This document shows, one piece after another, positions 16,703-46,176 of a stretch of 46,176 bases of DNA (positions are counted from its first letter, which is position 1; every line of letters begins with the position of its first letter). The notes under the pieces were generated by a model. It had not been told where the DNA came from, searched no databases, and was given only the letters and a program-made list of their open reading frames with translations. The DNA is from Ileibacterium valens (GTDB taxonomy: Bacteria; Bacillota_I; Bacilli_A; Erysipelotrichales; Erysipelotrichaceae). The stretch lies in NCBI RefSeq assembly GCF_001945525.1, contig NZ_MPJW01000199.1, positions 1-46,176 on the forward strand. The letters are read 5' to 3'. Position numbers and translations under genes: made by a program.

Positions 16703-16708
16703 TTAGTG

Positions 16709-17899
16709 ATGAAGATTAGAAATGATATCAAAAATGAAAAATTATTTTCCACAGGGGAATTTGCATCAATTGCTCAGGTAACAAAACGCACTCTACAATT
16801 TTACGATCGAAAAGGATTACTGAAACCTAGTTATATCCTAGACAATGGGTATCGAAAATATACTCTAAAAGATTTAGAACGTCTTCAAAAGATTTTAATG
16901 TTTAAGGAACTGGGATTTTCACTGGATGAAATTACGATGCTCCTGCTCGATTCAAGAAAGGATCTTTTGAATTCAATACGTATTCAAAAAGATCTGGTCA
17001 ATGATAAAATCAATCATTTAAAAAATGTTCATGAGTCCCTTGGATTGGCTTCATTGAAATTAGAGTCTGGAAACTCAGATTCTGAAGACGTTATCCTGAA
17101 CCTCATACAGGTACTCAAAAAAGATGAAAATCTGGTCGAGCAGTATAAAACCGCTAATAATTTGAGAATCAGAACAAACTTGCATCAGAAGTATTCAACC
17201 GCAAAAGTTCCCTGGTTTGAATGGCTATTTTCTCAGCTCCGGTTTGATCACGTGAATCGAATTCTGGAAATTGGATGTGGAAATGGATTGTTATGGAAAA
17301 ATTGCAGCCGGTCTATGCGCAATCGAGATATCTTCCTTTCAGACATTTCTGAAGGAATGGTTGATGAAGCCAGAAAACAGCTCAACACCTATGATTATTC
17401 TTTTATGGTGTTTGCAGCCGAGTCGATTCCATTTAAAAACAGTTATTTTGATGCAGTGATCGCAAACCATATGCTGTTTTATCTGAAGGATTTTTCGCAG
17501 GGTATGAAAGAGATCAATCGAGTTCTGTGCGATCATGGAACTTTGTATGCCTCAGCATATGGAAAAAACCATATGAAGGAAGTCACTGAACTTGTTAAGG
17601 AGTTTGATCCACAGATTTACCTGTCAGATGAAAATTTATTCGATCGATTTGGTAAGGAAAATGGCAAAGAACTGCTTTCCACATGGTTTAACGAGATTGT
17701 CTATATTCCTTATGAAGATCATCTTGAAGTAACAGATTCAAGAGATCTGGCTGATTATATTATTTCGTGTCATGGAAATCAGAATGAACGTCTGCGTGGA
17801 CGAATTGACGAATTCCTGGAGTTTCTGGATTGTAAAATGAAACAAATGGGGAAAATAGTAATAACCAAAGATGCTGGGCTGTTCATCGCTAAAAAATAA
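16709..17899 (+). CDS. MerR-type DNA-binding domain fused to a SAM methyltransferase
   Basis: 396 residues. The N-terminal 80 residues form a MerR helix-turn-helix (FSTGEFASIAQVTKRTLQFYDRKGLL ... GYRKYTLKDLERLQKI), followed by a dimerisation helix rich in Lys and Leu. From about 150 to the end is a class I methyltransferase: motif I ILEIGCGNG (185-193), acidic motif II FLSDISEGM, FDAVIANHMLFYL and LCDHGTLYASAYG. A GTG at 16706 is an alternative start; the ribosome site is weak. It is the last gene before the terminator at 17921. Either it is a regulator that senses a small molecule through the methyltransferase fold, or an enzyme autoregulated through MerR; no target was established. Confidence 0.85.
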   Translation: MKIRNDIKNEKLFSTGEFASIAQVTKRTLQFYDRKGLLKPSYILDNGYRKYTLKDLERLQKILMFKELGFSLDEITMLLLDSRKDLLNSIRIQKDLVNDKINHLKNVHESLGLASLKLESGNSDSEDVILNLIQVLKKDENLVEQYKTANNLRIRTNLHQKYSTAKVPWFEWLFSQLRFDHVNRILEIGCGNGLLWKNCSRSMRNRDIFLSDISEGMVDEARKQLNTYDYSFMVFAAESIPFKNSYFDAVIANHMLFYLKDFSQGMKEINRVLCDHGTLYASAYGKNHMKEVTELVKEFDPQIYLSDENLFDRFGKENGKELLSTWFNEIVYIPYEDHLEVTDSRDLADYIISCHGNQNERLRGRIDEFLEFLDCKMKQMGKIVITKDAGLFIAKK

Positions 17900-24460: not shown

Positions 24461-25498
24461 ATGATTAATTTAGAAAATTCAAAAGTGCTGATCACAGGAG
24501 CAGCTGGTTTTATTGGCTCTAATCTCGCTAAAGACCTGCTGAAGAAATTCAAAGACATCAAGATCGTCGGAATTGATAATCTGAATGATTATTACGATGT
24601 ACAGATTAAACATAACCGATTGGAAGATCTAAATCAGGACTCTCGTTTCGAATTTATTAAAGGAGATATTTCTGATAAAGAATTAATTGATCAGATCTTT
24701 GAAACATTCCATCCAGATGTTGTCGTGAATCTGGCCGCTCAGGCTGGAGTTAGATACTCTATCATAAATCCGGATGCCTATATTCAAAGTAATCTAATCG
24801 GATTCTATAACCTTCTTGAAGCGTGCCGTCATTATCCGGTAAAACATCTTTTATTCGCATCAAGTTCATCAGTTTATGGAGCAAATAAGAAAATTCCCTA
24901 TTCGACTGAGGATAAAACAGACCATCCGGTGTCTCTTTATGCAGCTACAAAAAAATCCAATGAACTCTTAGCTTATGCATACTCAAAGCTTTACAAGATC
25001 CCGGCAACCGGTCTTCGATTCTTCACCGTTTATGGACCAGCAGGCAGACCGGATATGGCTTATTTTGGATTCACAGATAAACTCAGAAGAAATGAAACAA
25101 TTGAGATCTTTAACTACGGAAATTGCAAACGCGATTTCACCTATATTGATGACATCGTTGAAGGTGTAATTCGAGTGATGGAAAAATCTCCGAAAAAAGA
25201 TGAAAACGGTGTTGAATTCAAAGTTTATAACATTGGAAATAATGAACCGGAAAATCTTTTAGACTTTGTTACGATTCTGCAGGAAGAATTAATTCGTGCT
25301 CATGTATTACCGAAAGATTACAACTTTGAAGAGCATAAGAAATTGGTTGGCATGCAGCCTGGCGATGTCGAAGTTACATACGCGGATGTAACTGAATTAA
25401 TTAAGGATTTTAACTTTCAGCCTAACACTTCATTGAGACAAGGCCTTCGAAATTTTGCAGAATGGTATGCAGACTATTATGGAACTTGTGAACAGTGA
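24461..25498 (+). CDS. UDP-glucuronate 4-epimerase (CapI-like)
   Basis: 345 residues, extended SDR. ITGAAGFIGSNLAKDLL binds NAD; GIDNLNDYYDVQIKHNRL, NLAAQAGVRYSI, SSSSVYG, Y160-x3-K164 (SLYAATKKSNE), LRFFTVYGPAGRPDMA and RDFTYIDDIVEG match the UDP-glucuronate/UDP-galacturonate 4-epimerase group rather than GalE. Expected product is UDP-galacturonate. No UDP-glucose dehydrogenase is in the window, so UDP-glucuronate must come from elsewhere. GGAGG is just upstream of the ATG. Confidence 0.87.
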   Translation: MINLENSKVLITGAAGFIGSNLAKDLLKKFKDIKIVGIDNLNDYYDVQIKHNRLEDLNQDSRFEFIKGDISDKELIDQIFETFHPDVVVNLAAQAGVRYSIINPDAYIQSNLIGFYNLLEACRHYPVKHLLFASSSSVYGANKKIPYSTEDKTDHPVSLYAATKKSNELLAYAYSKLYKIPATGLRFFTVYGPAGRPDMAYFGFTDKLRRNETIEIFNYGNCKRDFTYIDDIVEGVIRVMEKSPKKDENGVEFKVYNIGNNEPENLLDFVTILQEELIRAHVLPKDYNFEEHKKLVGMQPGDVEVTYADVTELIKDFNFQPNTSLRQGLRNFAEWYADYYGTCEQ

Positions 25499-30943: not shown

Positions 30944-32056
30944 ATGAAAAAGAAAATTGCAATTATCGGAGCAAGCTATCTTCAGGAACCTTTAATTCAG
31001 AAAGCAAAAAACATCGGATTAGAAACTCATGTTTTTGCTTGGGAAGTTGGTGATCCAGGAGAAACGTTAGCAGATTATTTTTATCCGATTTCAATAATAG
31101 AAAAAGAACAAATTACAGAAATATGTAATAATTTAAAAATAGACGGTATTTGTACGATCGCGTCTGATCTGGCGGTTAAAACTGTTAATTATGTGGCGAA
31201 TCGTCTTGGTCTTCCTGGAAACAGTTTGGAAAGCACACAATTATCTACTGATAAAGTGAGAATGCGGGAAATATTTAATAAAAATTCAGATCCGAGCTGT
31301 AAAAGCCGAGTAGTTTTTCCTGAAGACAATCCTCTAAATAAAATTGAAGCGACACATTCTTGGCCATTGATTATAAAACCTTCAGACCGATCGGGAAGCC
31401 GAGGTATATATCTAGCAAACACAGAATCAGAAATCATAGAGGGCGTTAATGCAGCTAGGCAAGAGAGTTTTAATCAGGTCGTTTTAATAGAAGATTATGT
31501 ATTAGGAGATGAATATTCTGTCGAGTATATATCCCAAAATGGAAAACATCATTTTCTTACAGCAACCAAGAAATTAACTACTGGGGCTCCTCACTTTATT
31601 GAAAAAGGACATATCCAACCTTCTGGTTTATCTGTTCAAATGATAGAAAAAGTTAAAAAAGTTGTTGAGCATGCATTAAATAGCCTAGATATTAAACAAG
31701 GGGCTTCCCACACTGAAATAAAAATCTACAAAGATGATATTACAATTATTGAAATTGGGGCTAGAATGGGTGGAGATTGCATAGGTTCACATCTTGTTCC
31801 ACTGACAACTGGGTATGATTATTGTCGTATGGTCATTGAATGTGCACTTAACTGGCCTATTAGTATGGATATTCATGAACATCACCAAAGTGCTGAAGTA
31901 CACTTTATTATGGATGATAAAGAATTGTTAAATTTCAAAAAAACTTTACAAGTCGAAAATAATGTGACTGCAATCCCATATCTTCGGTCATCACAGCACG
32001 AAGAAGTCAAAGATTCATCTACCCGGTTAGGTTGCTATATAATAGCAAACAATTAA
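30944..32056 (+). CDS. ATP-grasp ligase (carbamoyl-phosphate-synthase-L-like)
   Basis: 370 residues, cytoplasmic. A preATP-grasp N-domain (KKIAIIGASYLQEPLIQKAK) is followed by the nucleotide-binding WPLIIKPSDRSGSRGIYLA, EDYVLGDEYSVEYI and the metal-binding HTEIKIYKDDITIIEIGARMGGDCIGSHL. Enzymes of this fold join a carboxylate to an amine or thiol using ATP. In a glycan locus a likely role is making or attaching an amino-acid or acid substituent, but the substrate is not shown by the sequence. TGAGGT lies upstream of the ATG. It is followed 43 bp later by a large membrane protein. Confidence 0.8.
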   Translation: MKKKIAIIGASYLQEPLIQKAKNIGLETHVFAWEVGDPGETLADYFYPISIIEKEQITEICNNLKIDGICTIASDLAVKTVNYVANRLGLPGNSLESTQLSTDKVRMREIFNKNSDPSCKSRVVFPEDNPLNKIEATHSWPLIIKPSDRSGSRGIYLANTESEIIEGVNAARQESFNQVVLIEDYVLGDEYSVEYISQNGKHHFLTATKKLTTGAPHFIEKGHIQPSGLSVQMIEKVKKVVEHALNSLDIKQGASHTEIKIYKDDITIIEIGARMGGDCIGSHLVPLTTGYDYCRMVIECALNWPISMDIHEHHQSAEVHFIMDDKELLNFKKTLQVENNVTAIPYLRSSQHEEVKDSSTRLGCYIIANN

Positions 32057-32099: not shown

Positions 32100-34061
32100 A
32101 TGGTCATTGATTATATAAAAGGTTTTTTGTTTTTAACGATTTATTTTCTGTATATATATTTACTTGGAAGCATTTATCCAAATGATAATTCGTTTTATAA
32201 AAAGATAATTTATGGATATTTAACTACATCTTTAATGGCCGGAATCTTAGGAGTGATAACGCAGATTCTTTTTTTACCATGGAGTTTTTTTGCCATAACA
32301 ATGACTATTTGGCATATATTGGCTGTCTTATTAGGGTTGTTGATGATTAAAGAAAAAAAAGTAAATCTGTTTAGAAGTTTATTAAATGATATAAAAAAAC
32401 ATTATTTTCTATTTCTACTGATATTTATCCTTCTATTTTTACAGATGGGAAATTATCCTGGATTCTGGTTGTCAAACCACCTGGATGACGGTTTTTATCT
32501 ATCAAAAATAGGTATACCATGGCAGATAGATGATTTTCATTCGGAAAACTTGGTGAGTGGTTTTGGAAAGCTTCATCATATAGATTCCTATTCTTTAAAT
32601 ACTCATGAACTTGAATATGGTTATTATTTGAGTTTGATTAGGATTCCAACAACACTCTTTGCCAGATTTTTTATGGCTTGGATAAACTTACTTATTACAT
32701 GCTGTACAGTTTCTTACTTATCTGAGATTCTGTTTCGAGCAATGAGACTTAATTTTAATTATCCAATTTCGGATTATGCAACAGTCATCCTCATCGTTTT
32801 TCTTTCAAATGAAGTCCTATCCAGAGAGATGAATTTGATAGATATGCAAGATATGAACCAAATTTCTTCTGCTTTTTATTATGGCTCTGTACTTGTTAGA
32901 ATGGTTTCTTTTATATGGCTAATTGCCCCGTTTATTAAAAAGAAGAAAATTAATCTCTCTTTAATTATAAAAGTTCTAATTATTTCGTTTGTTTTATTAA
33001 CTAAAAGTGGCGTCGCACTTCCTCTGATTATAACTTGTATAATTTCGTATTTATTCGTATTTTTGCTATTTAGGAAAAGCAGTTCGAAGAAATCTGCTTT
33101 TATTCTACTTGCTGTGGTGGTTTTAGGTAATGTTGTTTTATATATGGCTTGTGGAAATATTCCCCTTTTAATGCCTATTAAAGTAACGTCTGAAACTTCA
33201 GTTCACTTATTAAATTCATTTATCAAGAAACCTATCTTTATATTATTTCTAATTAGTTTCATTGGTTCTTTCATATTTAAAAGTAAACTGATATATAAAT
33301 ATAATCTTGTTATCGTTGTATGTTATCTTTTAATAGGTTGTCCTATTTTAAATACTTTTACAGCAGCAATTTCCATCTATCCTTTTGTTCTCGCCAGAGC
33401 AACAGCAGCATTAACTTGTTTTATCGCGTTTACAGCATGGATTTATTTATTGGGTATTATTTTCTACATTGTTAAATCGCAACGTATGTTGATGGTTTTT
33501 GGGGACGTTAGTACAGCTCTTCTTTCGTCCTTTGTTCTATATACTTATGGTGTAAGTGGTGGAGCTATTACTGGGCTTGATAAACCAGGAGAAGTTCCGA
33601 TTAGTAAATTTTATGAAGTGATCTTTGAGCATCCAGCATTGACGCCAAAAGTAACTGTTGAAATAGGGAATATTCTTAATGAAGCTTCAAAAGAATTAGG
33701 ACAAAGAATCGTATTATCAAATATGTCCTATGTAATTGACAATGTAGATGCTCAAATTCCACTGGAGCTAAGGCTTTTCTCGCCTGATTCAATTATTTTG
33801 TGCAATAATCATCGATATCCTCAAAATGAAAATCCAGAGTTTGGATCGTTTAGTCTTGAAGATTTAGCTATTTATGACGCATATATTAGTAATCCAGATG
33901 ATGTGAATGAAGTTGATCTTAAGTCAGTAATTGATCAATATAAAATTAATACCTTGATTACTGAAAATTCTCAAGTTAACTTTTCTGATCTTGGATTCCA
34001 TTTGTACGGTACAACATCTGAAGATTCTGATGGGCGAAAATTTTATGTTTACGTTAAATAA
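32100..34061 (+). CDS. Large polytopic membrane protein, possible GT-C glycosyltransferase
   Basis: 653 residues: about 12 membrane helices up to residue 510 and an extracytoplasmic C-terminal domain of about 130 residues. A short N-terminal membrane region leads to NYPGFWLSNHLDDGFYLSKIGIPW, whose acidic pair in an outer loop recalls GT-C enzymes. I know similar proteins only as uncharacterised (DUF6077-like) from memory. Codon use is strongly AT-biased (many ATA, TTA, AAA), like its neighbours from about 28.8 kb. It is the last gene before the strong terminator at 34266. It could add a terminal sugar outside the membrane; this is inference. Confidence 0.55.
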   Translation: MVIDYIKGFLFLTIYFLYIYLLGSIYPNDNSFYKKIIYGYLTTSLMAGILGVITQILFLPWSFFAITMTIWHILAVLLGLLMIKEKKVNLFRSLLNDIKKHYFLFLLIFILLFLQMGNYPGFWLSNHLDDGFYLSKIGIPWQIDDFHSENLVSGFGKLHHIDSYSLNTHELEYGYYLSLIRIPTTLFARFFMAWINLLITCCTVSYLSEILFRAMRLNFNYPISDYATVILIVFLSNEVLSREMNLIDMQDMNQISSAFYYGSVLVRMVSFIWLIAPFIKKKKINLSLIIKVLIISFVLLTKSGVALPLIITCIISYLFVFLLFRKSSSKKSAFILLAVVVLGNVVLYMACGNIPLLMPIKVTSETSVHLLNSFIKKPIFILFLISFIGSFIFKSKLIYKYNLVIVVCYLLIGCPILNTFTAAISIYPFVLARATAALTCFIAFTAWIYLLGIIFYIVKSQRMLMVFGDVSTALLSSFVLYTYGVSGGAITGLDKPGEVPISKFYEVIFEHPALTPKVTVEIGNILNEASKELGQRIVLSNMSYVIDNVDAQIPLELRLFSPDSIILCNNHRYPQNENPEFGSFSLEDLAIYDAYISNPDDVNEVDLKSVIDQYKINTLITENSQVNFSDLGFHLYGTTSEDSDGRKFYVYVK

Positions 34062-34265
34062 ATAGATATTCTCATCTGAAACCTTAGTTATGATGTCTTA
34101 GTATTTTAGCTGATGTACTTAAAAAAGTGCTGTCTGCTCATGATCGAATCTAGTATATTAATGAAATTATTTTTTTGCGTAACTAGATTAAAGAAACTGT
34201 CTGAGATACGCGAGTTGGTTTTCAGAAGTCTCAATATTGTAATATGTTTTTAATAAATAGAAGAG

Positions 34266-34305
34266 AAAAAGAACATAAAAGATTACCTTCTTTTATGTTC
34301 TTTTT
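34266..34305 (+). terminator. Strong, likely bidirectional terminator
   Basis: A perfect 17-bp stem: A5-GAACATAAAAGA (34266-34282) with TCTTTTATGTTC-T5 (34289-34305) and a six-base loop. It ends the 21.9-34.1 kb unit. The group II intron begins about two bases after it. Confidence 0.9.
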
Positions 34306-34306
34306 G

Positions 34307-35648
34307 GTGTACAGGGCAAGGTGTGTAGTTTATGGTGAAGTCTAGTCACAGGTTTTCATCGGCGAGTATAGAGAAGCACAAGCGGGCGTGTTTGTACCTT
34401 AACCCTAAGGATGAACGAATACCGAAGCGGTAAATCAGGAGGCCATGAAATGAAAGTTATGTGTCTTGCTCCGCAAGATCCTGCAAACATCCGTGCTTGT
34501 CTTCGTGAATCAGTCAATGGACCAGGTTCAAAGCGGTGCCGGTGGTCGAAAAAGGTTTATTGCAGGAAGTCAGCAGAAGCCATAGTAGGCATAAGCCGAA
34601 GGGCTGAACAGATAAACAAGTCTTAAGTAAGTCTGCTAAGTGTTTAGATAGTCTGCAATTTTGGATGCAAAGCCGATAGAAACGTATGTCTAAAGGTCAG
34701 CTGTTCACCAGATGAGATGATTCTTTCACTGTAAAGATGACAGAAAGGAAAGACAGAACAATGAACGAGTATCACGAAACGCACCAATTTGGTAGGTGGG
34801 ATCCTTTGAGCCATATGCTTAGCGAAGACAATGTTAAGCGGGCAGTAGAAGCTGTCATGGCAAACAAAGGCGTTCCCGGACCAGATGGAATGAAAACCAC
34901 AGAACTCGATCAGTGGATGGCTGAGAATAAATATCAGCTCATTCAGGACATTTGAAATAAGACCTATAAACCTCAGCCAGTCAGGCGAGTTTATATTCCA
35001 AAAGCGAATGGCAAGAAAAGACCATTAGGAATCCCTAATGTGGTTGATCGAGCAGTTCAACAGATGGCGGCTCAGACCCTTCAAATTTGCTTTGAACCCC
35101 TATTTAGTCCATTCAGTTATGGATTTCGTCCTGGAAGGAAAGCACAGGACGCAGTCAATCAGGCTCTTGTGTACCTGAACGAAGGATATGAGTGGATCAT
35201 TGACTTTGATATTGAGAAATTCTTTGACAGAGTCAACCACGATAAACTCATTTCATGCGTTAGAAAAGAAATCAATAATGATGTGATCCTGCATCTAATC
35301 CGGAAGTTTCTAAAAGCCGGAGTTATGGAAGATGGAGTAAAAGTTAAGACGGCAGAAGGCCCTCCTCAGGGAGGCCCCATGAGTCCAATACTTGCAAACA
35401 TCTACTTAACGGAATTGGATCGGGAACTGGATAAAAGAGGTTTGCGCTATGTCCGTTATGCCGACGATTTTCTCATCCTTACTAAATCGGAAGTGGCGGC
35501 CAATCGAGTGATGGAGTCTGTCAGCCGATGGATCCGCAATAAACTGTTTTTGAATGTCAGTGCTGAAAAGATCAAAGTGGTCAGGCTTATAAAAAGCATA
35601 TTCAGGAATTCCCGGTTTGGCGAAATCCAGAGTGACTTATATGATTAG
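34307..35648 (+). mobile_element. Decayed group II intron
   Basis: The sequence from GTGTACAGGGC at 34307 onward looks like a bacterial group II intron: about 450 bp of structured, non-protein sequence and then a reverse-transcriptase gene. Its 5' end lies directly after the terminator hairpin, the insertion preference of class C introns. The 5' boundary is a best estimate, and GTGTA departs from the usual GUGYG. No domain V hairpin (with a CGTACGGTTC-like end) is visible after the reverse-transcriptase frame, so the 3' part is missing and the element cannot splice or move. The small 71-codon frame at 34411 lies in the RNA part and is not considered a gene. Confidence 0.7.
34761..35648 (+). 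pseudogene. ltrA: Group II intron reverse transcriptase/maturase, inactivated
   Basis: The start ATG 34761 follows GGAAAG. The reverse-transcriptase blocks are clear: [69 protein letters not shown] and the catalytic YADD. A TGA at 34953-34955 interrupts the frame where the family usually has a coding residue (between LIQDI and [11 protein letters not shown]); the rest continues in the same frame. Near 35603 another frame reads FPVWRNPE, resembling the conserved FLGF.FW region, which implies a frameshift. The maturase and endonuclease parts are absent. The protein cannot be made in full. Confidence 0.85.
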
Positions 35649-35651
35649 TGA

Positions 35652-35825
35652 ATGTTCAAACATCTGTCCAAATTGACTGAATGCAAAGATGGAGAAGTTA
35701 ATATGCTTTTACAAAAAGTCAATGTTAATGGACGAAAGATTCACAATCCTAACTTTATGACAGTGGACTTATTACAGATCATCCATGCCTATACTCCCGT
35801 TGATGAAAAAATTACTAACAAATAG
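35652..35825 (+). CDS. 57-codon ORF, unknown; possibly a gene remnant
   Basis: An open frame of 57 residues from ATG 35652 to TAG 35823-35825, beginning MFKHLSKLTECKDGEV and ending VDEKITNK. It begins four bases after the broken intron ORF and has no ribosome binding site. The composition is protein-like, with a hydrophobic-charged pattern, so it may be the tail of a larger gene cut by the intron's decay. I do not recognise the family. Confidence 0.25.
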   Translation: MFKHLSKLTECKDGEVNMLLQKVNVNGRKIHNPNFMTVDLLQIIHAYTPVDEKITNK

Positions 35826-35942
35826 CTCAAAATAGTTTATACCGTTTTAAAAATAAGCGCTTGTATTATTTCAGCCGTTATTAGTGAGTAATCTAAGTTT
35901 TTTAAAGAAAATTTCTACCTCAAAAAGGCTATCCGCATGATT

Positions 35943-35971
35943 TTGACATGTAAATAAAATCTATCTATCAC
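35943..35971 (+). promoter_or_regulatory. Candidate promoter for the fourth unit
   Basis: A perfect TTGACA (35943-35948), a 17-bp spacer and TATCAC (35966-35971), a weak -10. It lies 14 bp before the flippase start, so the leader would be very short. The intron region upstream ends transcription, so a promoter is expected here. Confidence 0.4.
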
Positions 35972-35985
35972 AGAAGGGAATTGAT

Positions 35986-37260
35986 ATGAAAAAATTCAAA
36001 ACTTGGATGTTTGAGTCCAACAATGAGAAGGTTATTTTGAAACGCGCTACCTTTTGGAATTTAATTTCGAGTTTATTAAATGCATCTATGACAGCTGTTA
36101 TTATTTTTTTTATGACCAGAGCAGGTCAGACAGAGATTGCAGGTTTTTTTTCAATCGCCACTGCAGTTGCTTATCAGGTTCAGGCCATCGGCTTTTTCGG
36201 TGTTCGAAATTATCATATAGCAGATGTTACCAATAGATATTCGTTTTCGGATTTTGTATATATTAACCTCTTTTCATCGGTGCTCATGATTGTATCGTTA
36301 ATTTTTATCATTTTTAAAAATGGATATTCTGGCGAAAAAGCATTGATTGTGTTGTTTTACTCCTTGTTCCGAGCGATTGATGTTTATGAAGCGCTATTTC
36401 ATGACGAATATCAGAGACAAGGAAGAATAGATATTGGATTAATCTTACAAACTATTCGATACTTGGTGTCATTGACAGTCCTGATTGTACTGTTATTAAT
36501 TACAGGTAGCTTGGTTATTGGAATTATCGGAGCTTTAATCATATCTATTCTTCTAGTTTATATACAAAATAAAGATTTTTGCGAGTCGTTTAGATGCCAT
36601 ATACGAAAACTACAGATCGCTAAGTTTAAAAATTTATTATGGGTTTGTCTTCCTATATGTATTGCTGGTTTTATATCAATCTATCTCACGAACGCTCCGA
36701 AATATGCCATTGATAGCGTGATGAATGATCAGGTTCAAGGAATATTTGCGATACTATTTGTACCTGTCTTTACTATTAATCTTCTAGCTACTGTAATATA
36801 CCGTCCATATATAACACAGATTAGTGTGGAATGGACTTATGGACGAAAAAGACAATTCATAAAAATGATTTTAAAACAGGTTTTTGTGATTATACTGTTG
36901 TCTCTGACAATTATAGTATTCGGTTATATTATTGGATTGAAGCTTCTTGGAATGGTTTATTCGATAGATTTAATGCCCTATATGTCGGAATTTCTCATTT
37001 TATTAATTGGTGGAGGATTAAACACACTGGCGATCTTTATAAATCAGATAATGGTGATAATTGGATGCTATCATTGGAATCTAATTATTTATTTAGTTGC
37101 AATTCTAATTACGGTGTTGTATGGAGATACGATTGTTATGAATCATCAGTTGATGGGAGCTTCAATTCTCTATTCTCTTCCATCAATAATTTTAATAGTA
37201 TTTAGTCTGATTGTGTTGATTATTAAAATCTGTCGGCTGAGATCAAACTTACGAAATTAA
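35986..37260 (+). CDS. wzx: Wzx-type oligosaccharide flippase 2
   Basis: 424 residues with about 12 membrane segments. The GFFGVRNYHIADVTNRYSFSDF loop matches the flippase at 5313, so they are paralogues despite low similarity elsewhere. AGAAGGGA precedes the ATG. A 207-bp AT-rich gap follows in which I see no gene and no clear terminator. It should flip a lipid-linked repeat unit distinct from that of flippase 1. Confidence 0.85.
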   Translation: MKKFKTWMFESNNEKVILKRATFWNLISSLLNASMTAVIIFFMTRAGQTEIAGFFSIATAVAYQVQAIGFFGVRNYHIADVTNRYSFSDFVYINLFSSVLMIVSLIFIIFKNGYSGEKALIVLFYSLFRAIDVYEALFHDEYQRQGRIDIGLILQTIRYLVSLTVLIVLLLITGSLVIGIIGALIISILLVYIQNKDFCESFRCHIRKLQIAKFKNLLWVCLPICIAGFISIYLTNAPKYAIDSVMNDQVQGIFAILFVPVFTINLLATVIYRPYITQISVEWTYGRKRQFIKMILKQVFVIILLSLTIIVFGYIIGLKLLGMVYSIDLMPYMSEFLILLIGGGLNTLAIFINQIMVIIGCYHWNLIIYLVAILITVLYGDTIVMNHQLMGASILYSLPSIILIVFSLIVLIIKICRLRSNLRN

Positions 37261-37467: not shown

Positions 37468-38397
37468 ATGGATAATAGTAATGAAGTTTTGAAATGGCTT
37501 GAACAACTTTCCAACGAGAAAATTGCCATCAAAAACAGTCCAGAAAATTCAATAGGAAGAGCCTTTTTGAATTATTGGTCTAAGATAAAGAAAGGCGATT
37601 TTAAGGGCCTGTCAAAAGATGTGAAAGACTATAAAGCAACAAAAAAAATCAGAAAACGTTATTTCAATCATTTAGATCGTCCTGAAGTTGACTCAAATCA
37701 AGTCAATATTAATGAAGCTAAAATCGCAATTTATACTTGCGTTCTTGGTGGTTATGATCAGATACCTGATCATCTTCCTGATTTTGACAATGCTGATTAC
37801 TTTTTACTTACAGATCAGCCAGAAAATTATGAATTTCTTTCAGACCGTTTTGAAATTATTCCATTAGATGAATCTCATCTAAATCTTGGAAATATCCTGG
37901 CAAATCGCTACGCGAAATTTCATCCAGCCGAGTTTTTTAAAGATCGATATGATTACGCAATTTATCTGGATGGAAATGTTCGGGTCACGGCGGATATTCG
38001 AAAAATGGTTAAACGAGTTCCTGTACAAACTGGAATTGCTATGCATAATCATCGAGAGCGCGATGATATTTTCTCTGAAGCTGAATCCTGCAAGCTGCTT
38101 CGAAGAGGAGATCCAGATAAAATTGATCTTCAAATGACAAGATATAAGAGTGCTGGTTTTCCGGCTCATTTTGGAATGAACGAGGCAACGGTGATTGTGA
38201 GTGATCTTAAAAATGAAAAATCTGTTGAACTTTTGGAGTTATGGTGGCAGGAATTTATCAAATCCGAGAGTTTTCGAGACCAGTTAGCCTGGCCATTTGT
38301 ACTCTGGGAAAATAATCTGATGATCGAAGATATAGGGAATCTGGGAAATGATATCTACAAGAACCCTCTGGTTGAAATTGAAAGGCATGCGAGTTAA
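37468..38397 (+). CDS. DUF616/TOD1-type glycosyltransferase
   Basis: 309 residues, soluble. After an ~85-residue helical N-terminal part comes AKIAIYTCVLGGYDQIPDHLPD, YFLLTDQPENYEF, NRYAKFHPAEFF and YAIYLDGNVRVTADI, the pattern of DUF616 glycosyltransferases, where the D-x-N of YLDGN is the likely metal site. QTGIAMHNHRERDDIFSEAE and FGMNEATVIVSDL follow. Its stop directly abuts the ATG of the TupA-like gene, so they form a pair. Donor and acceptor are not known. Confidence 0.8.
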   Translation: MDNSNEVLKWLEQLSNEKIAIKNSPENSIGRAFLNYWSKIKKGDFKGLSKDVKDYKATKKIRKRYFNHLDRPEVDSNQVNINEAKIAIYTCVLGGYDQIPDHLPDFDNADYFLLTDQPENYEFLSDRFEIIPLDESHLNLGNILANRYAKFHPAEFFKDRYDYAIYLDGNVRVTADIRKMVKRVPVQTGIAMHNHRERDDIFSEAESCKLLRRGDPDKIDLQMTRYKSAGFPAHFGMNEATVIVSDLKNEKSVELLELWWQEFIKSESFRDQLAWPFVLWENNLMIEDIGNLGNDIYKNPLVEIERHAS

Positions 38398-39261
38398 ATG
38401 TCGTTAATTAATAAATTATGGAAAATTCCATTTGTGGTTCAATCAAAAATTCCATTTAAACTATTGCCAGATCGACTATATCTGAGCTGCACTTTTCGAG
38501 GATTGATGAATAAAAAATTAAATTGGAATTCACCTGAAACTTTTAATGAAAAACTTCAATTGCTCAAGCTGAAATATTCTGGTCCAATTTACAGTGAATG
38601 GGTAGATAAACATCTTGCGAAATCTAAAGCGGCCAGTTTGCTGTCAAAAGAATGCATTATTCCAACGATCGCGACTTTTTCAGATCTCGAAGAGTTTGAA
38701 AAATCTTTAACAAATTTACCCAGGCGATTCGTTTTAAAAACAACGCATAATTCAGGAGGAGTATGGATTATTTCTGAAAAGAATCCATACTCCTCAAAGA
38801 TAAAAAAAGAGATTCAGAAAAATCTGAAAGAGAATTATTACAATCAATGGCGGGAAGCTCCGTACAAAGATGTCAGGCCCGCTTTGATCGTCGAAAAATA
38901 TATGGGAAATGATTTGAAGGATTATAAGCTTTTTTGTTTTCATGGAAAACCGGAAATTATTCTGGTTTGTTCCGAACGATCCAGCAATTTAAAAGAAGAT
39001 TTCTTCGACTGTTCCTGGAATCATCTCGATATGGAAAGAGTGAAACATCCAAACGCAGATTCGATTCCTGAAAAACCAAAGCAGTTATCTGAAATGATTT
39101 CTATGGCTCAAAAGCTTTCAGAACCTTTTGAATTCGTTCGAGTGGATCTGTTTGAAATCGATGGTTCTGTTTATTTTGGAGAAATGACTTTTATTCCTGC
39201 CTGCGGCTTTGAAGGATTCAAACCGGATAAATGGGATAAAAAGCTCGGTGAATGGATTTAG
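38398..39261 (+). CDS. TupA-like ATP-grasp ligase
   Basis: 287 residues. The N-terminal PDRLYLSCTFRGLMNKKLNW and NSPETFNEKLQ, the nucleotide-binding RRFVLKTTHNSGGVWI, VEKYMGNDLKDYKLFCFHGKPEII and the metal-site VRVDLFEIDGSVYFGEMTF match the TupA-like ATP-grasp family. TupA is linked to teichuronopeptide, a glucuronate-glutamate wall polymer of alkaliphilic Bacillus. Related genes in other glycan loci are uncharacterised. A role in joining an amino acid to a uronic acid or other carboxylate is inference. The ATG follows the DUF616 stop without a gap. A perfect 14-bp inverted repeat lies inside the gene (38756-38795). Confidence 0.82.
   Translation: MSLINKLWKIPFVVQSKIPFKLLPDRLYLSCTFRGLMNKKLNWNSPETFNEKLQLLKLKYSGPIYSEWVDKHLAKSKAASLLSKECIIPTIATFSDLEEFEKSLTNLPRRFVLKTTHNSGGVWIISEKNPYSSKIKKEIQKNLKENYYNQWREAPYKDVRPALIVEKYMGNDLKDYKLFCFHGKPEIILVCSERSSNLKEDFFDCSWNHLDMERVKHPNADSIPEKPKQLSEMISMAQKLSEPFEFVRVDLFEIDGSVYFGEMTFIPACGFEGFKPDKWDKKLGEWI
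38756..38795. repeat. Perfect 14-bp inverted repeat inside the TupA-like gene
   Basis: GAGGAGTATGGATT (38756-38769) and AATCCATACTCCTC (38782-38795) pair perfectly around a 12-base loop. It encodes an ordinary part of the protein (GGVWIISEKNPYSS), so it is not an insertion. The mRNA would form a stable hairpin here. Confidence 0.85.
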
Positions 39262-39327
39262 TTATGTAGTTAAATAGTTAAATAGAGCCTTTTAAAAAAC
39301 TGAAATGACCAAGATGTCTTAGAAAGT

Positions 39328-40134
39328 ATGAACAAAATGAACGAAACGCAAAGTGAAAAACCTATAGTAAAGATTTTCTGGACTGGAGGATGGGATTCAA
39401 GTTTCAGGATCTGTGAACTCTCTCGAATGCCGGTTCAGATCCAGCCATACTATCTTCATGGGGATGATCGTCATTCCGAAAAATTTGAACGCATAGCCAT
39501 GGATAAAATTACTCAGCTTTTGAAAGAACGGCCAGAAACTCAGGCTGATTTTCTTGATCTGATCAGTGTAGATATTCGAAATATCGAACTTCATCCTGAA
39601 GTTTCCGCTGCTTATCGAAGAGTCAGAGAAAAAACTGGGTTAGGCACTCAGATGGAATATCTTTCAAGCTATGTTTATGATCATCCTCAAATTGAATTAG
39701 GAATTGAGAAATTACCTGTTGAAGAATCACATATGATTCATGCGGTTCTTGATTCCTGTAAAGTGATTCGTAAAGAAGTCAATGGGATTGAAGAGTATTG
39801 TGCCGATCCTGATGAATCATCCGAAGATGGAATGCTTTTGTTTGGAAATATCCTGCTGCCTATTTTTGAAAAAACTGAATCAGACATGCTTCGACTCATT
39901 AAGGAATGGGGTTATCTTGATATTATGAAACATGTCTGGTTCTGCCATCAGCCTTATCAGGGACGTCCCTGTGGGATGTGTCACCCCTGTGAAGTCAAGA
40001 TGGGGGCAGGCATGGAATTTTTGCTGCCGGAAGATTCTCAGAAGAGATATCACCTTCAAAATAAATATCATGATAAATTCTGGTTTAAAGTCTACCGTAA
40101 ATTATTGTATTGGTTTTTCTGGAAACATGATTAA
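39328..40134 (+). CDS. QueC-like PP-loop ATPase of unknown substrate
   Basis: 268 residues. The PP-loop IFWTGGWDSSFRI (T19-GGWDS-S25) is a variant of the SGGxDS ATP-pyrophosphatase motif. Near the C-terminus C206, C215, C218 and C221 have spacing x8, x2, x2, identical to the zinc site of QueC (7-cyano-7-deazaguanine synthase). The rest differs from true QueC, and no other queuosine gene is nearby. Such enzymes adenylate a carboxylate or amide to make a nitrile, amidine, thioamide or amide. Next to a TupA-like ligase it may modify the glycan; this is inference. The C-terminal KVYRKLLYWFFWKHD is hydrophobic and may dock at the membrane. The ribosome site is weak. Confidence 0.75.
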   Translation: MNKMNETQSEKPIVKIFWTGGWDSSFRICELSRMPVQIQPYYLHGDDRHSEKFERIAMDKITQLLKERPETQADFLDLISVDIRNIELHPEVSAAYRRVREKTGLGTQMEYLSSYVYDHPQIELGIEKLPVEESHMIHAVLDSCKVIRKEVNGIEEYCADPDESSEDGMLLFGNILLPIFEKTESDMLRLIKEWGYLDIMKHVWFCHQPYQGRPCGMCHPCEVKMGAGMEFLLPEDSQKRYHLQNKYHDKFWFKVYRKLLYWFFWKHD

Positions 40135-40186
40135 ATAAGATAGAAGATAAAGGATTTTATAAACATAAAGAGAGAAGGAAAGTTGA

Positions 40187-40975
40187 ATGACATTATCAAA
40201 AACCAGAGATGCTGCTTTGCTAGGTACTTTGATGCTGGCCGGTTGTGCAGCACCCATAAACTCTTCCTCTCAGACAGAAAATTCAACTCTTTCTATTCAT
40301 GAGGTTCTTGAGCAGGTTGACCGCAATGATCTCAGACTGACCAGCTATCGAATGAATTCGATCGAAAAGTTCCGCTCCCCTGAAGCGAATGAAGATACGT
40401 CGTTTGAAGTCAGTGTGGAATTTGACAAGGAAAATCTATACATGATTTCAGAATTTCCAGAAGGCGGCAGCCGAATTGCTCAATACAGACTAAAGAATGG
40501 GCATAAACATACTTTAGATGGCTGCTATCTCGAAGTTCTCTCAGGAATGTGGGCTTTTATTGATGATGGGGGTATATTTCAGGACTTTTATCAGGTCGAT
40601 GAAGAGATGCAGGTGGAGGATTATATTTCCATACCTGCAGCCTATCTGTATTCAGGAAATGAATTTAAAAGTACAGCGACGGAAAAGGGCAGCTATGTAA
40701 TTGAAGTCGAAGCGAAAAATGCAGCCGACTCCCAGGTTCCCGGTTCAGAAAATTCACTGTCATTTACACTGAACAAGGATGGACTTTTGGAAGAAATTCA
40801 TTCTACTGAAACAGGACCCGATCAAATATATACCAATGAAAAGAGCAGACGGTTTTCTGACTATAACGTAAAAATGATCAATACCGGGGCAATGAAGCAA
40901 TTCTTTGAGCAGGTGAGTACTGGTCAGATTCAATCAGGAAGCCATATCAGTCTGGATCAGTTTCGTCTGAAGTAA
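40187..40975 (+). CDS. Secreted lipoprotein of unknown function
   Basis: 262 residues. A short signal peptide ends in the lipobox LAGC (C20), so the mature protein is anchored by lipid on the outer face. The rest is beta-rich with alternating polar and hydrophobic segments (FEVSVEFDKENLYMI, SYVIEVEAKNA, LSFTLNKDGLLEEI), a layout seen in LolA/LppX-type lipid-carrier folds; this likeness is weak. GAAGGAAAG precedes the ATG. It lies between the PP-loop gene and glf. A role in glycan export or chaperoning is possible but not shown. Confidence 0.7.
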   Translation: MTLSKTRDAALLGTLMLAGCAAPINSSSQTENSTLSIHEVLEQVDRNDLRLTSYRMNSIEKFRSPEANEDTSFEVSVEFDKENLYMISEFPEGGSRIAQYRLKNGHKHTLDGCYLEVLSGMWAFIDDGGIFQDFYQVDEEMQVEDYISIPAAYLYSGNEFKSTATEKGSYVIEVEAKNAADSQVPGSENSLSFTLNKDGLLEEIHSTETGPDQIYTNEKSRRFSDYNVKMINTGAMKQFFEQVSTGQIQSGSHISLDQFRLK

Positions 40976-41027: not shown

Positions 41028-42134
41028 ATGAAAAAATATGATGTCTTGATCGTCGGAAGCGGTCTGTATGGTGCGGTGATGGCCAGGCAGCTGATGGACG
41101 ATGGAAAAAAAGTTCTTGTTATTGATAAACGAAATCATATTGCAGGAAATGTATATACCCGTTTTGAAGATGGAATTCATGTCCATCAGTATGGTGCTCA
41201 TATTTTCCATACAAATAGTGATAAAGTCTGGGATTATGTAAACCGTTTTGCTAAATTCAATCGTTTTACCAATTCTCCAGTTGCAAACTATAAAGGAAAG
41301 CTCTATTCACTTCCTTTTAACATGTATACCTACAATCAGATGTGGGGTGTCAGTACGCCCCATGAAGCCCAGAAAATAATTGATGAACAGCGAAAGGAAA
41401 TTGATCATCAGCCAACAAACCTGGAAGAACAGGCCATTTCGCTTGTCGGCAGAGATATTTATGAAAAATTGGTTAAAGGATATACTGAAAAACAATGGGG
41501 ACGGGATTGTACCGAACTTCCAGCTTTTATTATTAAGCGTCTGCCGGTTCGAATGACCTTTGATAACAACTATTTCAATGCACTCTATCAGGGGATTCCA
41601 ATGGGTGGCTATACGAAGATGGTTGAGAATATGCTTGATGGTGCAGATATTCGGTTGAACACAGATTATCTTGAAAATAAAGAAGAGCTTGATTCACTGG
41701 CGGATCTGACCATTTATACCGGGCCAATTGATGCTTACTTTGACTTCAAATTGGGCCCGCTCGAATACCGTTCGCTTCGCTTTGAAGAAGAAAAGCTCGA
41801 TATTCCGAATTTTCAGGGAAATGCTGCCGTAAATTATACGGATCGTGAAACTCCATTTACAAGAATCATTGAACATAAATGGTTTGAAGATACCGGCAGT
41901 GATAAGACGATCATTTCCAGAGAGTATCCGATGGACTGGAAACCAGGTGATGAGCCTTATTATCCTGTCAATGATGAAAAGAATACTGAGCTCTATCAGA
42001 AATACAGAGAGCTGGCTGATCAGGAAGAGAATGTTATCTTTGGCGGACGTCTTGGTGAATATCGTTACTACGATATGGATCAGGTCATTGCCTCCGCGCT
42101 TGCAAAATATGATCGAATGAAAGAGAATCAGTAA
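41028..42134 (+). CDS. glf: UDP-galactopyranose mutase
   Basis: 368 residues, FAD enzyme converting UDP-galactopyranose to UDP-galactofuranose. The N-terminal DVLIVGSGLYGAVMARQL binds FAD; DKRNHIAGNVYT, QYGAHIFHTNSDKVWDYVNRF, YTEKQWGRDCTELP, FDNNYFNALYQGIPMGGYT and the C-terminal FGGRLGEYRYYDMDQVI are diagnostic. AAAGGAG lies before the ATG. A terminator overlaps its stop codon. It indicates that the glycan contains galactofuranose. Confidence 0.96.
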   Translation: MKKYDVLIVGSGLYGAVMARQLMDDGKKVLVIDKRNHIAGNVYTRFEDGIHVHQYGAHIFHTNSDKVWDYVNRFAKFNRFTNSPVANYKGKLYSLPFNMYTYNQMWGVSTPHEAQKIIDEQRKEIDHQPTNLEEQAISLVGRDIYEKLVKGYTEKQWGRDCTELPAFIIKRLPVRMTFDNNYFNALYQGIPMGGYTKMVENMLDGADIRLNTDYLENKEELDSLADLTIYTGPIDAYFDFKLGPLEYRSLRFEEEKLDIPNFQGNAAVNYTDRETPFTRIIEHKWFEDTGSDKTIISREYPMDWKPGDEPYYPVNDEKNTELYQKYRELADQEENVIFGGRLGEYRYYDMDQVIASALAKYDRMKENQ

Positions 42135-45888: not shown

Positions 45889-46176
45889 ATGCATAATTAT
45901 CTGTTTTCCAAATCCCGTGAACTGAATCAGGAACAGTGGATGAACCTGGTTGATCAATACCAGGTGTCAGGTCTGACTCAGGCTGGCTTCTGCGTCCAAA
46001 ACGGCCTGGCTTTATCCACCTTCCAGTACTGGCGAAGAAAAGCTGCCGCCGTATCGCCTGCTTCAGCGGCTCTTGAATTCGTAGAAATTGACAGGACGGT
46101 CTTCCTGGATTTGGAAGGATCAGACGAGAGTCCAAAGCCGGTGATTGAAATCACTGACAGCGACCGAACGATCCGT
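45889..46176 (+). CDS. tnpA: IS66 family accessory protein TnpA, N-terminal part
   Basis: The first 96 residues of the IS66 TnpA-type (HTH) accessory protein, running off the window edge. NQEQWMNLVDQYQVSGLTQAGFC followed by LALSTFQYWRRK is the classic helix-turn-helix pattern of this family. The middle (EFVEIDRT) and later part is the variable region. It is needed with TnpB and TnpC for transposition. GGAGG precedes the ATG but is in a hairpin. Confidence 0.85.
   Translation, partial: MHNYLFSKSRELNQEQWMNLVDQYQVSGLTQAGFCVQNGLALSTFQYWRRKAAAVSPASAALEFVEIDRTVFLDLEGSDESPKPVIEITDSDRTIR

Follow-up and report, generated by a model that had tools for sequence, protein, structure and literature searches.

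What would a QueC-like PP-loop enzyme be doing in a bacterial wall-glycan locus, directly beside a TupA-like ATP-grasp ligase? The question is posed by a 46,176-nucleotide stretch of the Ileibacterium valens genome (NZ_MPJW01000199.1, positions 1 to 46,176; the whole stretch is called the window below), in which a sequence-only reading had grouped four genes at 37468–40975, for a DUF616 glycosyltransferase, a TupA-like ligase, a PP-loop enzyme, and a lipoprotein, into a cassette that could install an amide, amidine, or nitrile group on the wall glycan. The answer that we favor, at about even odds (a probability of roughly 0.5), is that the PP-loop and TupA-like enzymes decorate glycan acids, with the putative zinc PP-loop enzyme amidating the uronic-acid carboxylate and so providing an alternative to the amidotransferase WbpS.

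The PP-loop protein carries the P-loop WTGGWDSSFR at residues 18–27 and a Cys4 site, WFCHQPxxxxPCGxCHPC, at residues 204–221. The zinc motif noted earlier is real, and the identity of the protein rests on family and fold evidence rather than on a Pfam call; its score against the QueC model PF06508 (16.3 vs 22 bits) lies below threshold. Ninety-five full-length relatives were collected, all at E<1e-3 to the window protein and the best 43–45% identical. Across 50 sequences, 19 columns are invariant: the P-loop G-x-D-S, P40, Y42, R48, E54, G106, Q108, and W-x-C-H-x-P-x4-P-C-G-x-C-x-P-C. Most members are 235–305 residues long and consist of the PP-loop domain and the putative zinc site only. While a search of solved structures with the single window sequence gave no match, the family profile retrieves only QueC structures from the PDB at E<0.01. 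Foldseek, given the AlphaFold model (pLDDT 94.8, pTM 0.90), places QueC (3bl5) first, with Cap9 also high and TtuA and MnmA among the better matches. We are confident that the modeled fold is of the QueC type, and we treat the protein here as a ligase of the QueC superfamily, its zinc site being a prediction.

QueC itself (7-cyano-7-deazaguanine synthase, PF06508; PDB 3bl5, 2pg3) activates a carboxylate with ATP for attack by ammonia. The two proteins have the PP-loop fold and the P-loop in common, the SGGxDS of QueC reading TGGWDS in the window protein, with Thr in place of Ser, and its D and S being invariant in 50/50 members. The predicted zinc ligands C206, C215, C218, and C221 align with C188, C197, C200, and C203 of the QueC site, C-x8-C-x2-C-x2-C. 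The resemblance ends at the substrate: the QueC motifs YxQxHxxE, VPxRN, and YPDC are replaced and, when E. coli QueC (the one QueC used) is aligned to 50 family members, Y35 becomes D or G, R99 becomes S or T, Y131 is not conserved, and Y189 is H in 50/50. Each of these four residues is essential in QueC, according to the first part of the results and the “Functional diversification” section of a 2026 QueC survey (PMC13329287). The same two parts of that survey contain no cluster with the present signature, and to that extent the family appears to be a widespread, undescribed branch of QueC. The neighbors differ as well, no queD or queE being recognized among the listed neighbors or the Pfam counts of the PP-loop loci.

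A DNA pattern for the zinc motif, run against ~85,000 species genomes, returned at least 118 loci, a few of them chance matches lacking the P-loop. Its members span many phyla, among them Bacillota, Bacteroidota, Pseudomonadota, Actinomycetota, Planctomycetota, Synergistota, and Saccharibacteria, and come from at least about 110 species. Within the family to which the window belongs, the gene is present in 1/146 genomes, and in its class in 1/296, in both cases the genome of the window itself; phmmer likewise found no relative in 146 genomes of the family and 392 of the phylum other than the window's own. An exact peptide-pattern search of proteins and a tblastn search of plasmids and phages gave no relatives. 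On this distribution, the patchy spread is likely due to horizontal movement. One member lies on an IMG/VR contig beside virus-like structural open reading frames (ORFs; L005, 5280–5996), with no relative in the phage collection, and a Mariniphaga contig (L105) carries three PP-loop genes in tandem.

The link to uronic acids comes from gene order. Within the window's half of the family tree, the PP-loop gene directly adjoins a UDP-glucuronate (UDP-GlcA) 4-epimerase-type or UDP-sugar 6-dehydrogenase gene in 8 of the 9 regions that have one: the former in L020, L044, L074, L095, and L097, the latter in L034, L031, and L116, always on the same strand and across gaps of 4–102 bp. In L095, the order is epimerase, PP-loop, dehydrogenase. 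Permutation of gene order gives P 1e-5 for this adjacency and 6e-4 once near-duplicates are dropped, for a motif-selected sample in which the gene calls are mechanical and the epimerase and dehydrogenase names come from motifs and homology. In Compostibacillus humi, the closest relative among the matches listed (44%), a degenerate dehydrogenase and the start of an epimerase come next after the PP-loop gene; in Thioalkalivibrio, an epimerase lies 3.5 kb away. Uronate neighbors do not cluster on the tree beyond shuffles, and we therefore do not claim a single origin for the linkage.

The window's own locus can be compared with that of another genus of its family (genome G028, read from L152 / L161-L163). 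The genes concerned are as follows.

24461..25498, plus strand: UDP-GlcA 4-epimerase-type short-chain dehydrogenase/reductase (SDR), with the motif SSSSVYGxNxKxPxSxxDxxDxPVSLYAATKK, PDB matches to SDR epimerases/dehydratases, and profile support
30944..32056, plus strand: second ATP-grasp ligase of the locus (ATP-grasp_4, PF13535, E 1.5e-23); backbone gene, 53% identical in G028
37468..38397, plus strand: DUF616 / TOD1_MUCI70 glycosyltransferase-like protein (PF04765, E 9e-10, above cut-off); backbone gene, outside the pair
38398..39261, plus strand: TupA-like ATP-grasp ligase (PF14305, E 8e-54; 183 bits, curated cut-off 25)
39328..40134, plus strand: PP-loop / QueC-superfamily enzyme, proposed uronic-acid carboxylate amidase
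40187..40975, plus strand: secreted lipoprotein with signal peptide and lipobox LAGC; a rare backbone gene, no match in Pfam or NCBIfam
41028..42134, plus strand: UDP-galactopyranose mutase Glf (TIGR00031, E 3.5e-131); backbone gene, 76% identical in G028

The four genes at issue are complete plus-strand ORFs at the positions first given for them, and the DUF616 and TupA genes do touch, the stop TAA directly abutting the start ATG. In G028, this locus recurs with LCP at either end and its order kept (Rml genes, epimerase, second ATP-grasp, DUF616, lipoprotein, Glf, Wzx, LCP). The epimerase is 75% identical between the two and the DUF616 protein 62%; the lipoprotein has one orthologue, 20% identical, at the equivalent place. 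In G028, 15 bases separate DUF616 from the lipoprotein gene, which is followed by Glf, with neither TupA nor PP-loop between them; in the window, TupA and PP-loop occupy exactly this gap, and joint gain or loss of the pair (38398–40134) is therefore the simplest account. Hence the four-gene cassette does not survive as proposed, DUF616 and the lipoprotein belonging to the conserved backbone, while TupA and PP-loop stand out as a unit within the glycan locus. Judging from gene order, this unit is a movable accessory module in an otherwise conserved locus for a rhamnose- and uronate-containing wall glycan. The epimerase-type SDR, whose family also adjoins PP-loop genes at other loci, would supply UDP-galacturonic acid (UDP-GalA). 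Both genomes keep it, so GalA is probably part of the glycan whether or not the pair is present, which makes the pair look like an optional modification. The DUF616 family was matched in 0/49 PP-loop-bearing genomes, a weak zero, as the same search found it in no control genome.

As to the TupA partner, an ATP-grasp gene adjoins the PP-loop gene in 20 of the 118 loci listed (TupA in 8, ATPgrasp_ST in 9, RimK in 3). TupA occurs in 29 of 49 PP-loop genomes, in 19 of these on the same contig as the PP-loop gene and no more than 20 kb from it, by manual comparison of coordinates. In the window's family, it scores above cut-off in 22 of the 146 genomes; the taxon mix of the two samples differs. The expected co-occurrence is thus borne out in direction, both by genome and at the loci. 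Presence in 22/146 family genomes means that TupA does not need a PP-loop gene. In other members of the window's family, dehydrogenase and epimerase genes are often found close to the TupA loci, as fits the original TupA polymer, which is built of glucuronic acid and glutamate (PMC8153356). The present case shares PF14305 and the uronic-acid context with that teichuronopeptide system of Bacillus halodurans, but the poly-gamma-glutamate side is not indicated in the window, and PF14305 occurs widely, and in multiple copies, in glycan loci. Because PF14305 is common among Clostridia and within the window's family, the statement that TupA is known only for teichuronopeptide is a poor guide to function. 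On a Synergistales contig (L013, 1000–5260), two TupA genes flank a run of three PP-loop genes, and in L139 (9603–10302) an epimerase-TupA pair precedes a decaying PP-loop copy interrupted by several stops.

Beyond the family, predicted fold, motifs, neighborhoods, and presence or absence of the pair, which are observed, we infer the substrate, nitrogen donor, product, and order of steps relative to TupA. The PP-loop enzyme would use ATP to adenylate the C6 carboxylate of UDP-GalA, of UDP-GlcA, or of a residue in the lipid-linked glycan, and ammonia would then displace AMP to give a primary uronamide, equivalent to the first QueC half-reaction carried out on a sugar. A uronamide is the simplest product because it follows from QueC chemistry and the uronate neighbors together. 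TupA would activate a carboxylate as the acyl phosphate and couple an amino compound to the same kind of residue by an amide bond, such that, together, the two enzymes would alter the charge of the glycan by capping or decorating its acid groups.

Uronamides are real components of bacterial glycans, made by WbpS, an enzyme of the asparagine-synthase-like AsnB type (PMC7468200, PMC6025236). WbpS and WbqG share with our proposal both the product and the placement beside uronic-acid genes; WbpS nevertheless belongs to a different protein class, and none of 50 PP-loop members matches its class II glutamine amidotransferase or asparagine synthase domains in Pfam or NCBIfam. WbpG, the N-acetyl-sugar amidotransferase, is likewise a PP-loop enzyme of glycan loci, but its signature, CxxC(x)6CxC with SGGxDSxY in the parts of PMC13329287 named above, has a different cysteine pattern, and the WbpG-type NCBIfam model does not match our family. 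With that signature and with no HisH/HisF-like partners recognized, an amidine finds no support, and the amide is the best supported of the three groups first suggested. Precedent for reuse of the scaffold outside queuosine synthesis is found in the QueC-family proteins Cap9 (CBASS type IV) and QatC (qatABCD). PADLOC gave weak matches only, one family member for QatC and none for the window protein, and no defense partners were recognized in the PP-loop regions listed.

The main rival, which we consider unlikely, is that the PP-loop and ATP-grasp enzymes act in series, the amide being formed on the free carboxylate of an amino acid that TupA or another ATP-grasp ligase has attached to a uronic acid, or on a small molecule that is then coupled by the ATP-grasp partner. 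It would account for the joint gain or loss of the pair in the window's locus and for the adjacency of three ATP-grasp families to PP-loop genes in ~10 separate lineages, but at least one epimerase-linked member, L044, comes from a genome in which no TupA was found. Less probable again is that these are chance neighbors in a gene-rich glycan locus, the PP-loop function being unrelated and possibly not concerned with glycans at all. The single copy in the whole family sample would fit, as would the members outside glycan loci, although the short same-strand gaps to uronate genes and the ATP-grasp adjacency recur in separate lineages.

Two further chemistries seem very improbable to us. A TtuA/MnmA-like sulfur transfer, making a thio-acid or thioamide on the sugar, would be in line with the Foldseek matches to those two enzymes and the Cys-rich site; however, the four cysteines align with the QueC zinc site, the top match is QueC, and no sulfur-carrier gene was recognized in the regions listed. 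Slightly less probable still is a full QueC-type conversion of glycan acid carboxylate to amide and on to nitrile, which superfamily membership and the predicted zinc site would allow. The replacement of the catalytic and substrate residues of QueC, Tyr189 included, speaks against the nitrile, and nitrile sugars are not known as a glycan component.

Several points count against uronic-acid amidation itself, the support for which comes from sequence, predicted structure, and gene neighborhoods. Five of the nine uronate regions were fetched after the adjacency had been seen, and the four fetched for other reasons show it in 3/4 (P 0.036). Placement with uronic-acid nucleotide-sugar genes, as expected of a uronamide synthase, is found in the window's half of the tree, but in the window itself the epimerase lies 14 kb from the PP-loop gene, and a separate contig holds the dehydrogenase. 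No uronate link is seen for members of the other half (Lysobacteraceae, Steroidobacter), and in these groups and in some Clostridia no link to glycans is visible. Nor is the family confined to glycan loci, a restriction that the sequence-only reading had said would support its idea of the pair: L137, L144-L146, and Steroidobacter members (the last with phosphoenolpyruvate mutase) lie elsewhere. In L144-L146, three metagenome-assembled Clostridia genomes, the gene follows a conserved membrane protein of ~582 residues with no obvious glycan genes adjoining.

A broader claim, to which we assign somewhat less than even odds, is that widespread, undescribed zinc PP-loop uronamide synthases on the QueC scaffold, a class apart from WbpS, act with ATP-grasp ligases to neutralize or decorate surface-glycan uronic acids in many phyla. 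If this is true, a substrate class could be assigned to a QueC-superfamily branch that spans at least about 110 species and lies outside the 2026 survey, as far as its parts named above extend. The scaffold, which already serves in modifying tRNA, DNA, and proteins, would then be seen to act on sugars too; glycan amidation, and hence surface charge, would become predictable from genomes with the PP-loop gene; and TupA-like ATP-grasp proteins would gain a directly testable role beyond teichuronopeptide.

The remaining observations concern the surroundings of the pair. G+C content is ~36% across DUF616 and TupA and 39–40% from the PP-loop gene on, with no sharp break. Weak matches of the DUF616 protein to Rab7 and haemoglobin were judged to be chance. 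In the interval from the second ATP-grasp gene to DUF616 (32100–37260), the window has a 653-residue membrane protein, an apparent reverse-transcriptase remnant, and an extra Wzx-like flippase, where G028 has only a lipoprotein-like ORF of 407 residues; the reverse-transcriptase ORF (35040–35648), typical of a group II intron, lies in a stretch missing from the G028 locus. At 16706–17899, inside the glycan locus and partly conserved in G028, a MerR-type regulator is fused to a methyltransferase domain. The dehydrogenase of the window's genome, of the UDP-glucose-6-dehydrogenase type and of the kind in L142 and L143, is on contig C65, where the dehydrogenase-like ORF (L126, 1240–2727) includes an N-terminal helix-turn-helix (XRE-like) domain. 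At the window's end (45889–46176), the start of an ORF resembles an IS66-type transposase accessory protein.

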